A stretch of 64,000 nucleotides of DNA from Egibacter rhizosphaerae. GTDB lineage: Bacteria; Actinomycetota; Nitriliruptoria; Euzebyales; Egibacteraceae. The DNA is taken from assembly GCF_004322855.1 (NCBI RefSeq), contig NZ_CP036402.1, positions 186,001 through 250,000 of the forward strand, in the 5' to 3' direction. Below, piece by piece: positions 31,266 to 35,304 of the stretch. Position numbers and translations under genes: made by a program. The notes under the pieces are model-generated. The model had not been told where the DNA came from. It ran no database searches and was given only the letters and a program-made list of their open reading frames with translations. Every line of letters starts with the position of its first letter. Position 1 is the stretch's first letter.

Positions 31266-31811
31266 ATGTCCGAACCCGTCCCCGGCGGCGCGTCGGTCCG
31301 CGAGAGCAACGACGTCGTCGAGCTGATCCTCGCCGATCATCGCGAGTTCGAGCGCCTGTTCCGACGGCTGCGCGACCGCGAGGAGGACCGCCCCACGCGG
31401 CTGCGGGAGCTGGCCGACCTGCTCGTGGCGCACGCCGAGGCCGAGGAACGCGAGGTCTACCCGAGCCTGCGCCACCGCGCACCCGAGGAGGACGAGGAGA
31501 TCGCGCACAGCGCCGAGGAGCACGCGGAGGGCCACCAGGAGCTGCTGGCGCTCCTCGAGGTCGAGAACCCGCAGTCGGACGCGTTCGAGGCGCAGCTCGA
31601 GGAGCTCGTGGAGACGGTGACCCATCATCTCGACGAGGAGGAGCGCGACGTCCTGAACGCCGCGCGCGAGAACGTGCCCGATGACGTTCGCGCCGACCTG
31701 GGCGAACGCTTCCTGCGCGTGCGTCGGGAGTGGCTCGACGCGAGCCCGGGCAGCCGCGAGGAGGTGCGCCAGCTGGTGGAACGCGTGCGCGAGCGCGGCG
31801 ACCTCGAGTAG
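31266..31811 (+). CDS. Hemerythrin HHE-domain protein
   Basis: This 181-aa soluble protein has a four-helix hemerythrin-like fold. Candidate di-iron ligands are His in LADHREFERLF, His/Glu in VAHAEAEEREVYP, His in AEEHAEGHQELL and His/Glu in THHLDEEERDVL. Such proteins sense or store oxygen, nitric oxide or iron; the specific role is unknown. The ATG at 31266 has GAGAGGAGG upstream. It lies 106 bp after acnA, whose Fe-S cluster is oxygen- and NO-sensitive, so a protective link is conceivable but only inferred. Confidence 0.9.
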   Translation: MSEPVPGGASVRESNDVVELILADHREFERLFRRLRDREEDRPTRLRELADLLVAHAEAEEREVYPSLRHRAPEEDEEIAHSAEEHAEGHQELLALLEVENPQSDAFEAQLEELVETVTHHLDEEERDVLNAARENVPDDVRADLGERFLRVRREWLDASPGSREEVRQLVERVRERGDLE

Positions 31812-31813
31812 CG

Positions 31814-31829
31814 CGGCCGGCGCCGGCCG
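31814..31829. terminator. GC palindrome between convergent genes
   Basis: A 16-bp perfect palindrome (CGGCCGGCGCCGGCCG) lies 3 bp after the hemerythrin stop and 12 bp before the end of the convergent hypothetical gene. It could form a terminator hairpin on either strand. Confidence 0.4.
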
Positions 31830-31840
31830 TCGGCAAGCCC

Positions 31841-32251
31841 TCAGCGGCCCTTCCAGTAGTCGGGGGGCTCGTCGCGGCGGTGACACACGTTGCCGTCGAA
31901 GTCGTAACGCCACCGGGCGTTGGTCCCGCCGTGCATCCGCACGTAGGAGCCCGCCTCGAGGTAGGGGGCGAGGGCGTCGAAGACGTCCTCGATCTCGGGG
32001 ACCAGCTTGTCCTCGAACGCGAGGCCGACGATGTCGCCGCCATCGCGCTCGGTGGCGAATCCGAGCAGCCGGAGGAACCCGTCCACGTCGCGGAGCTGGA
32101 GGTCCGAGAGATCGTAGTGGAACGTCTCCCGCGCCAGTCGCAGCAGCCGTTCGAGGGCCGGGCGGTGATGCTCCTCGCGCAGCACGAAGCGCGCGTCCTC
32201 GACTCTCGCCTCGGTCCAGCCCACCCCCACTCCTGTCGCCGCTCGGGCCAT
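31841..32251 (-). CDS. Hypothetical protein, 136 aa
   Basis: This soluble protein has no family I recognise. Visible features are a central acidic helical region (EIEDVFDALAPYLEAGSYVRM) and a C-terminal aromatic/basic segment with WRYDFDG and one Cys-His pair (NVCHRRDEPPDYW). The ATG at 32251 gives a clean N-terminus (MARAATGVGVGW). A GTG 8 codons earlier is the alternative. It is divergent from the 335-aa membrane protein, with 38 bp between starts, and convergent with the hemerythrin gene. Confidence 0.6.
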   Translation of the reverse strand: MARAATGVGVGWTEARVEDARFVLREEHHRPALERLLRLARETFHYDLSDLQLRDVDGFLRLLGFATERDGGDIVGLAFEDKLVPEIEDVFDALAPYLEAGSYVRMHGGTNARWRYDFDGNVCHRRDEPPDYWKGR

Positions 32252-32289
32252 CGCGCAACCTACCGCCGCAGCCACCCGCCGGAGTGACC

Positions 32290-33297
32290 ATGCCTGCCGT
32301 CATCCGCCTGATCGCCCTGGCCATCTCGAAGACGTTCAGCAAGCTCTTCGGGCTCGCGACGATCACGTTCTTCGGTCGCATGCCGTCCCGCGACGACACC
32401 AAGATCGCGGCGGTCGGGCTGCTGTCGCTCGCGTGGATCGTCCTGCCGGTCGCCGTGCTGTTCCCCGAGGTCGGCGAACTCGTCCTGCCGTTCCTCGGCG
32501 GCGACGAGCAATTGGTGCGGACCGTGGCGGCCGTGCTGCTCGTCCTCGTGCCCGCGGTGGTCGGTGGACTCACGGCGTTCACGGTCAACCATCGGGTCGC
32601 GGGCCGCTCCACCGTGGGACAGATCCTCAAGGGGTACGTCTACGCACCGATCATCGCCGTGCTCGTCGTCGCCGTGTTGCTGGTCGTACCGATCGTGAAG
32701 CTGCGCCAGGTCGCCCGCCTGCGCGACGTCCGACACCAGACGATCATGGTGCGCGACGACGACCTCGCCGAGTGCCGCGACCGGGTCGAGGCCATCCTCC
32801 AGCGTGTGGGATTGTCGACGAGGCGTACCGAGGCCGAACTCCCGATCCGCGCGCTCTTCAGGGGCCTCGCGTGGGTCCTCTCCGACATCTTCGACCGGAA
32901 GCTGGACGGAGGGATGCTCCAACTGACCGTGGGGGTCGACGAGCGCGAGGTGGAGCTCACCGTCCACGGGACCGACCTGACCGCCGTGGGTCCACGGCGC
33001 GAGGTCGCGTACGTGATGGCGCTGCTCAACGAGGGGATCAGCGAAGCGCCCCTGTACCTGACCTGGGATGCTCCCGGCCAGGATCTCGAGGATCGCATGC
33101 TGGCGTTGCGCGAGGCGCTCGAGCGAGGCGAGCCCGTCGACGAACGGGCGTTGGGCCGGATCGCCGAGGAGCTGCGATGGCTCGCCCTCGGCACGGAGGC
33201 GTGGGACGCGGTGCGCCGAAGGCTGTTCGTGCTGGAGCGCGATGCCGCTCGCCACCGTGCCGGCGAGACCGTCCGCCCCGATTCACGGGCCGTCTAG
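32290..33297 (+). CDS. Membrane protein with cytoplasmic C-terminal domain, unknown
   Basis: This 335-aa protein has three predicted helices in the first half (about 42-60, 74-96 and 118-141) and a soluble C-terminal half (about 145-335). The soluble half contains a beta-rich stretch (LQLTVGVDEREVELTVHGTD) and a charged helical end. I do not recognise the family. The N-terminal 35 residues are amphipathic and basic (MPAVIRLIALAISKTFSKLFG). The ATG at 32290 has GGAGTGACC just before it. No operon partner is evident. Confidence 0.65.
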   Translation: MPAVIRLIALAISKTFSKLFGLATITFFGRMPSRDDTKIAAVGLLSLAWIVLPVAVLFPEVGELVLPFLGGDEQLVRTVAAVLLVLVPAVVGGLTAFTVNHRVAGRSTVGQILKGYVYAPIIAVLVVAVLLVVPIVKLRQVARLRDVRHQTIMVRDDDLAECRDRVEAILQRVGLSTRRTEAELPIRALFRGLAWVLSDIFDRKLDGGMLQLTVGVDEREVELTVHGTDLTAVGPRREVAYVMALLNEGISEAPLYLTWDAPGQDLEDRMLALREALERGEPVDERALGRIAEELRWLALGTEAWDAVRRRLFVLERDAARHRAGETVRPDSRAV

Positions 33298-33606: not shown

Positions 33607-33933
33607 TCACCCCCCGGCGATCGCCCCGATCAGCCGCACCGGCTCCCGGCCTTGGATGACCGAGGCGGGCAATTCGGCCTCGGTCCAGGCATCGGAGTAG
33701 TCCTCGCCGTCGGCGTACACGCGGATCATCGCCCGCCGGCGGCCGGTGGCACGATCCCGGACGGTGCCAGCCAGCGACGGGTGGGCGGCCTCGAGCGCGT
33801 CAACGACGGCCTCCACCGTGGCCGGCCGCGCGACCTCGACGGTGACCTCCCCGCTCACGCGCGCGAGGGTGCGGAGCTGGTGGGGCACCACCAACCGGAT
33901 GCGGGCAGCCTCGGTGCGCGCACGCTCGCTCAT
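33607..33933 (-). CDS. MoaD/ThiS-like ubiquitin-fold protein with C-terminal Gly-Gly
   Basis: This 108-aa protein has the beta-grasp pattern of MoaD/ThiS sulfur carriers: [40 protein letters not shown], and a C-terminus ending exactly in Gly-Gly before the stop. In MoaD, ThiS and their relatives that end is adenylated and thiocarboxylated by an E1-like enzyme. The segment [16 protein letters not shown] is as in stand-alone MoaD family members. The start overlaps the stop of the upstream BNR-propeller gene by 4 bp, so they are translationally coupled. No moaA-E, thi or E1-like genes are in the window. Confidence 0.82.
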
Positions 33934-35045
33934 GGCAGCGTCTGCACCTCGACCGAGAGGACGCGCGGCAGGTCCCGCACGATCGGCTGCCAGTGGTCCC
34001 CCTCGTCGGCGGAGACGTAGACCTGCCCTCCGGTGGTGCCCAGGTACACGCCGCACGGATCGAACGAGTCCACCGCGAGCGCGTCACGCAACACGTTGAC
34101 GTAGCAGTTGGCCTGGGGCAACCCCTCGCCCAGCGGCTCCCACTCCCCTCCCCCGGTGCGGGACCGGTACACGCGCAGCCGCCCGTCCGGTGGGTAGTGC
34201 TGTTCGTCGCTGGTGATCGGCGCCACGTAGACGGTGTCCGGTTCGTGCGCGTGCACGTCGATCGCGAACCCGAAGTCGGTCGGGAGGTTCCCGCTCACCT
34301 CACGCCAGGAGCGGCCCCGGTCGTCCGACCGCATCACGTCCCAGTGCTTCTGCATGAACACCACATCCGGTCGCGCCGGATGCTGGGCGAGCTTGTGGAC
34401 GCAGTGGCCGACGTCCGCCTCGGGGTCGGGCATGAACTCCGAACTGAGCCCCGCGTTGGAGGGATGCCACGTCGTTCCGGCGTCGTCGGTGGCGAGCACT
34501 CCGGCTGCCGAGATCGCCACCAGCATCCTGTCCGGGTCATCGGGCAGGGGAAGGATCGTGTGCAAGCACAGCCCTCCTGCCCCCGGAGCCCACGAGGAGG
34601 CTGACGCGTGGGTGCGCAGGCCGGGCAACTCGGTCCACGAGACGCCACCGTCCTGGCTGCGGAACAGGGCTGCGTCCTCGACCCCGGCAAGAAGCTCGTC
34701 CGGATCCTCCGCGGAGGGCAGCAGGTGCCACACGCGGGTGAATCTCCACGGCATCGACGAGCCGTCGTAGAACAGGTGCGTGCCCGGCTCGCCCTCGTAT
34801 GCGAAGTCGTTACCGACCGGCGCCCAACTCGCTCCGCCGTCGTCGGATCGTTGCACGACCTGGCCGAACCACCCGTTCGACTGCGACGCGTACAGCCGGT
34901 CCGGATCGGCCGGCGAACCGGCGACGTGGTAGATCTCCCAGCCGCCGAAGAGCGGTCCCTCGACCGTCCAGTCCTGCCGGCGACCGTCGGACGTCAGCAG
35001 GAACGCCCCCTTGCTCGTCCCGACCAGCACTCGCACACCAGTCAT
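33930..35045 (-). CDS. BNR/sialidase-like beta-propeller protein
   Basis: This 371-aa protein is built of repeating propeller blades carrying Asp-box motifs: [12 protein letters not shown] (about 70), [12 protein letters not shown] (about 140), [11 protein letters not shown] (about 185), [12 protein letters not shown] (about 245), [11 protein letters not shown] (about 350). There is no signal peptide, so it should be cytoplasmic, unlike true sialidases. The catalytic Arg triad and Tyr of sialidases cannot be identified. The ATG at 35045 has AAGGAG 6 nt upstream. It is the first gene of a two-gene operon with the MoaD-like protein, the likely functional partner. The role is unknown. Confidence 0.85.
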
Positions 35046-35304
35046 CCCACGCTCCTTCGATCGTCCGTTCTCGGCCGGGCCGACGACCCCCGAGCGACAC
35101 GCAGCAGGACGGCCCCAGCAAATAGACCCCCGCGGCCGCGAGAACTCATCGCCCGCCGGGGACCCCCGGCGCGGTGACATGTCCGGTGGCACGGGTCGGC
35201 GCCGGGATACCGGCCGGTGAACCGACTCGCTCGCGTCAAGGTGGGTGCCGCACGAAGGCATCGTACGCCGATGCCCGTGATGCGGGCTCAGGGAGGCGTG
35301 ACGC

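Follow-up and report, generated by a model that had tools for sequence, protein, structure and literature searches.

A Gly-Gly-ended beta-grasp protein encoded beside, or fused to, a cytoplasmic Asp-box propeller in many phyla

The known bacterial beta-grasp carriers ending in Gly-Gly serve few types of partner, namely ThiG, MoaE, CysM, the tRNA thiolases and the units carrying E1 or JAB genes. In the CysO-CysM-Mec+ system a small Gly-Gly beta-grasp protein also has a dedicated partner, which is however a PLP cysteine synthase and not a propeller, and mycobacterial CysO is activated by an unlinked MoeZR, a single enzyme that loads several MoaD-type proteins besides CysO (PMC3227635). SAMP1, an archaeal small modifier, is the closest solved fold to the small protein described here and shares its Gly-Gly end; the survey of archaeal Ubls (PMC2948915) has no mention of propeller, BNR or sialidase. 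The ThiS/MoaD-type clusters of Iyer et al. 2006 belong to the same beta-grasp class and form small conserved gene units, but those units include genes for E1, JAB or cofactors whereas the operon of the propeller pair is without E1 or JAB, and the words propeller, BNR and sialidase are absent from that text too (PMC1779556). On the propeller side, Ycf48 and sortilin are of the same Asp-box type and were solved with peptide ligands, but they have other partners and are related in sequence to our propeller at the level of the repeats only. Its full-length homologue is 3b7f (Reut_B4987 of Ralstonia eutropha JMP134, a putative glycosyl hydrolase with BNR repeats), solved alone and listed as seven-bladed with the function 'not known' (PMC2716378). 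A search of the literature, which was not exhaustive, found no description of a propeller/beta-grasp pair.

Such a pair is encoded on the minus strand of the window, as we call the whole 64-kb stretch of DNA analysed (Table 1). A sequence-only reading of this DNA had claimed two genes overlapping by 4 bp, an Asp-box propeller with neither signal peptide nor visible sialidase active site, a beta-grasp protein ending exactly in Gly-Gly, and no molybdopterin or thiamine genes nearby. These claims hold: the overlap is present, the propeller has five strict boxes and lacks both a leader and the RIP motif, the small protein ends in GAIAGG and takes a beta-grasp fold in AlphaFold2, and ThiF, MoaE, ThiG and any ThiS-family gene over the Pfam cut-off are absent from the 64-kb window. 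The surroundings comprise genes for an aconitase, a hemerythrin, a DUF3152/cell-wall-binding protein, a GreA/GreB-type protein and a small ORF without Pfam match; also near the pair, at window positions 31681-33297, lies an ORF called at 538 aa, which has membrane-type segments and is without a Pfam match. Elsewhere in this single-contig genome of 4.64 Mb, and all separate from the pair, ThiS adjoins ThiG at 61 kb, MoaE lies at 994 kb and a ThiF+rhodanese E1 at 4.10 Mb. In a further difference from the CysO system, this genome also has a CysO-like gene of its own, adjoining a JAMM gene at about 795 kb and likewise apart from the pair.

Table 1. Features of the propeller/beta-grasp locus, in window positions
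Feature	Position	Strand	Basis
Asp-box (BNR) propeller gene, 371 aa product	33930..35045	minus	ORF
Beta-grasp (SAMP/MoaD/CysO-like) gene, 108 aa product, C-terminus GAIAGG	33607..33933	minus	ORF
ATGA stop/start overlap, 4 bp, coupling the propeller and beta-grasp genes	33930..33933	minus	sequence
Shine-Dalgarno AAGGAG, 6 nt before the propeller ATG	35052..35057	minus	sequence
Terminal Gly-Gly codons of the beta-grasp gene	33610..33615	minus	GG conservation in homologues
Trp152 of propeller, invariant	34590..34592	minus	100% in 121 divergent propellers
His162 of propeller, inner strand, presumed binding/active site	34560..34562	minus	99% in 121 propellers
His217 of propeller, inner strand, invariant	34395..34397	minus	100% in 121 divergent propellers
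Gln232-x-His234 of propeller, invariant	34344..34352	minus	100% in 121 divergent propellers
Arg320 of propeller, invariant	34086..34088	minus	100% in 121 divergent propellers

The two proteins were modelled separately with AlphaFold2, each alone. The propeller (pTM 0.87) is a cytoplasmic, seven-bladed Asp-box (BNR) protein of the 3b7f type, matching this structure by phmmer (E 1.8e-71, residues 4-366) as well as by Foldseek (TM 0.88, E 1.9e-31, 36% identity). Its five strict boxes ([ST]xDxGxx[WF]) are joined by a sixth, degenerate one, while 2000 shuffles of the same propeller gave a mean of 0.036 strict boxes and a maximum of 2. A leader is absent from the model, since the first strand begins at residue 3. 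On its repeats the protein passes the Vps10/sortilin profile PF15902 (50.4 vs 33 bits); a ten-bladed Vps10p architecture was ruled out by the length of 371 aa and the end-to-end alignment with seven-bladed 3b7f. Other close structures include Ycf48 with the D1 peptide, sortilin with neurotensin and DAIP with thermolysin. Across 121 propellers, partnerless ones included, W152, H217, Q232, H234 and R320 are conserved at 100% and H162 at 99%, and H162 and H217 fall on strands of the model that read as inner blade strands. Judging from propeller topology, the six residues would form one putative site and, because they stay conserved in partnerless propellers, sequence conservation suggests that the protein may keep its core activity without a linked partner. 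Paired and solo propellers differ at minor positions only, and therefore no partner contact surface can be named.

Such propellers go under the database name 'exo-alpha-sialidase', and GH74 enzymes rank next after 3b7f among the fold matches, two observations that favour a catabolic glycosidase (sialidase or xyloglucanase) with the small protein as its chaperone. Nevertheless, the propeller has no leader and no RIP motif, and it stays under the cut-offs of the sialidase-type Pfam profiles (BNR_2, 16.0 vs 31.4 bits; BNR_3, 19.8 vs 27) and of the F510_1955 family glycosylhydrolase (NF045728, 74.2 bits vs 175). On these grounds a sialidase or glycosidase was rejected as the main reading, and we hold it to be very improbable; these propellers usually bear a wrong label, that of a sialidase.

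The model of the small protein (pLDDT 87.7) finds its best solved matches by Foldseek in SAMP1 (3po0/4hro, E 1.3e-5) and CysO (3dwg, 3.3e-4). With 22.2 bits it falls just short of the cut-off of Pfam ThiS (PF02597, 22.5 bits), which is passed by its counterpart in a second pair of the same genome (49.3 bits) and by the fused protein P0007 (47.1 bits). SAMP1 is also the closest NCBIfam profile (NF041918), matched far under its equivalog cut-off (29.1 vs 60 bits). The second pair lies at 2.08 Mb (L092:8746-10078; G000:C1:2080745-2082074), with a propeller 37% identical to that of the window and a partner ending in FVPAVSGG.

With nothing but the propeller as query, GTDB contigs yielded at least 584 relatives, of which the best 80 were examined. 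These are the closest relatives (70-85% identical) rather than a random sample, and the partner played no part in their choice. Going by record titles, they carry at least 11 phyla labels: Actinomycetota, Chloroflexota, Acidobacteriota, Rokubacteria/Methylomirabilota, Verrucomicrobiota (Opitutaceae), Bacteroidetes, Planctomycetota, Gemmatimonadaceae, Aminicenantes, WPS-2, Proteobacteria and others. The small beta-grasp gene follows the propeller in every one of the 80 loci, and such a recurrence means that the arrangement is not due to chance. The adjacency that the sequence-only reading had proposed to look for across actinobacteria is thus fully conserved among the closest relatives and reaches far beyond that group. 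The junction is a 4-bp ATGA or GTGA overlap in 74 loci, with spacings of +3 and +36 in one locus each and larger distances, with intervening DNA, in four. At one of these four, L063 (7152-7681), genes of a DUF433-like antitoxin and a PIN-like toxin type, named by eye, stand between propeller and partner; at L065 both proteins would share a single frame if the TGA were decoded as Trp.

When 907 neighbour ORFs were clustered, no recurrent third partner gene emerged within 6 kb of the 80 loci, the most frequent neighbour being an ABC-type ATPase (12/80), a common gene type. Sulfur genes do not recur next to the pair in these loci and, at variance with the CysO system, neither do CysM or JAMM within the same 6 kb. 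In nine of the 80 loci (L020, L021, L037, L045, L050, L055, L056, L064 and L082; L186 is a further case), genes for an ECF42-type sigma factor (DUF6596) and for YCII lie within 6 kb, often together with VOC, AHSA1 or beta-lactamase-like genes, and by annotation a Pseudomonas plasmid copy has a sigma factor and a YciI family protein near the pair. Five carrier genomes hold approximately one DUF6596 gene per Mb, so roughly one locus in 80 would be expected and, as a rough estimate, about nine times more are observed. The pair can therefore sit in accessory islands.

A wider survey gathered 111 loci with divergent propellers (about 30-42% identity) from two phylum scans and plasmid records. The family occurs in 76 of 297 genomes from the phylum of the window's genome (query, the propeller of the second pair) and in 28 of 399 from the phylum of Hyphomicrobium (query, a Burkholderia propeller). 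The partner is encoded downstream in 43 loci, upstream in 28 and fused in frame in 12, and is absent nearby in 28, part of which lie near contig ends; annotated records give the pair as 'MoaD/ThiS family protein' followed by 'exo-alpha-sialidase'. On a tree of 126 propellers, built by a quick method and with 40 of 122 inner branches weak, the arrangement changes 12 times vs 59 in shuffles. Partner-bearing members appear in every major clade, with the partnerless groups nested inside, and several alphaproteobacteria with a partnerless propeller have only one ThiS-family gene over the cut-off. Relatives of the propeller were absent from phage records, and this, together with the lack of a PADLOC match, led us to discard a role in anti-phage defence. 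The islands with DUF6596 and YCII would suit genes that travel together by chance or in an accessory island without joint function, but the partnership persists over deep divergence while the order shifts between downstream, upstream and fused, and no third gene comes near the frequency of the pair in the 80 loci; mere adjacency hardly deserves credence.

The 12 fusions of the phylum survey, of about 410-530 aa as called, run in a single frame from an N-terminal beta-grasp domain into a C-terminal propeller. Junctions were checked residue by residue in P0006 (ISGG-SDDTAELLVGT) and P0007 (ISGG-EDTTELLVGT): ThiS scores over the Pfam cut-off in both, and the propeller half passes a cut-off in P0006 only (Sortilin-Vps10), with a weak match in P0007. 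The fusion probably arose through stop loss, because neighbouring branches with the upstream arrangement show the same beta-grasp-first order. In all 12 the Gly-Gly is kept, now internally, while the beta-grasp domains average 52% identity.

Since the two proteins are encoded side by side or fused in many phyla, they very probably work together: we are highly confident that they make up a functional unit, and the genomic record indicates that this is very likely a dedicated two-protein module. As for the Gly-Gly, whose conservation the sequence-only reading had asked about, it is terminal in 78 of 79 complete partners from the 80 closest loci (subfamily A), the exception (L049) ending in GGCD, and over 92 divergent partners both Gly columns reach 96% conservation. 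Among the 69 separate partners of the wider survey, 55 end exactly in Gly-Gly, 13 run 1-5 residues past it and one (L189) lacks it. Tails of this sort look compatible with processing, because the genome's own CysO-like protein, with two residues after its Gly-Gly, adjoins a JAMM gene. In that instance (L094:6688-6969; G000, about 794.7 kb) the CysO-like beta-grasp protein ends in AGGHR, and the directly adjoining JAMM protease is likely the processing enzyme.

How the module works is a matter on which our preferred reading falls somewhat short of an even chance: the small protein would be a sulfur-carrier-type partner, activated by an E1 and acting at the propeller site. The propeller would bind a small substrate or peptide at the putative site of W152, H162, H217, Q232, H234 and R320, and its dedicated beta-grasp protein would dock on it; an unlinked E1 of the MoeZ type (ThiF plus rhodanese) would adenylate the Gly-Gly end and load a thiocarboxylate, as for MoaD and CysO, and the sulfur (or acyl group) so carried would be put to use at the propeller. 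Fused forms, as well as partners with residues after the Gly-Gly, would first require a JAMM-type cut. This scheme has genomic support in the pairing, coupling and fusion of the two genes, in the conserved Gly-Gly and the fold, and in the fact that the genomes encode E1 and JAMM; physical contact, activation, thiocarboxylate, transfer, substrate and reaction are what we infer. In its favour stand the complete adjacency in the 80 loci, the partner in 83 of the 111 further loci, the second pair and the in-frame fusions, together with a Gly-Gly kept across divergent partners, folds closest to SAMP1 and to CysM-bound CysO, and a ThiF+rhodanese gene that adjoins the pair, divergently oriented, at L012. 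Against it count the internal Gly-Gly of the fusions, the post-Gly-Gly tails, the partner of L189, the near universality of E1 and JAMM, the missing recurrent sulfur gene, and the 28 loci where a partnerless propeller nonetheless keeps the invariant residues.

The co-occurrence of an E1, which had been suggested as a check, turned out positive in name: among 74 propeller-carrier genomes, the only ones in which it was counted, 72 have a ThiF-type E1 and 72 a Prok-JAB over the cut-off. This presence is weak evidence and we did not rely on it, as nearly all carrier genomes have both and the E1 is unlinked to the pair. An unlinked E1 is to be expected and is no objection, since one MoeZR serves several carriers (PMC3227635). 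Within the 80 loci, ThiF-like genes lie near the pair only at L008 and L012.

The same internal Gly-Gly, tails, single Gly-Gly loss and partnerless propellers allow a purely structural role, where the beta-grasp protein would serve the propeller as a permanent subunit or regulator, its Gly-Gly tail being a small-residue docking element without E1 chemistry. This is a strong rival because the fusions bury the Gly-Gly and some lineages do without the partner, which is dispensable in several of them; moreover, Asp-box propellers of this fold do hold peptide tails, as in the structures of Ycf48, sortilin and DAIP. But an exact terminal Gly-Gly at the frequencies given above exceeds the usual demand of docking, and the fold of the small protein is closest to proteins that undergo activation; we regard a structural complex as a little less probable than the carrier. 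Ubiquitin-like conjugation, with the small protein joined to lysines like SAMP1/Urm1 and the propeller as adaptor or main target, would fit the closeness of fold and profile to SAMP1 and the E1-like and JAMM-type proteins of carrier genomes. The small protein nonetheless scores under the SAMP1 equivalog cut-off, no E2, E3 or linked JAMM/E1 was seen beside the pair, and one-to-one pairing and fusion better suit a dedicated partner than a general modifier; we consider conjugation improbable. Hence, what stands of the earlier proposal of a propeller with its small modifier is the module itself, through adjacency, coupling, conserved Gly-Gly and fusions, whereas its ubiquitin-like or sulfur-transfer role is conjectural.

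Pressed to its boldest form, the sulfur-carrier reading would give the cytoplasmic propeller a ubiquitin-like/sulfur-carrier protein of its own, for which it would be the dedicated acceptor or processing enzyme, the fused carrier being freed by a cut after the Gly-Gly in the style of ubiquitin precursors, within a widespread new pathway other than thiamine, Moco, cysteine or tRNA thiolation, a proposal we think unlikely as a whole. A propeller as dedicated partner across many phyla, sometimes fused, would add a new type of carrier partner, and would give a lead to the function of many 'exo-alpha-sialidase' proteins and of 3b7f, released in 2007. In this line, the fusions with internal Gly-Gly offer a clean test case for the need of a free Gly-Gly end.

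Two minor observations concern E1 genes of the carriers. At L008 (2153-4279) a separate beta-grasp protein is fused in one ORF to a longer C-terminal part that by eye is a possible cysteine synthase; this ORF, some 2 kb away from the propeller pair, adjoins the ThiF-like gene. In seven carrier-genome loci (L174-L177, L180, L181 and L183), MoeB/ThiF-type E1 genes have an in-frame UGA within LAPT-U-[GS]EAGVLG that probably encodes selenocysteine at the catalytic Cys, and MoeB selenoproteins were already known from the Sargasso Sea (PMC1088965).
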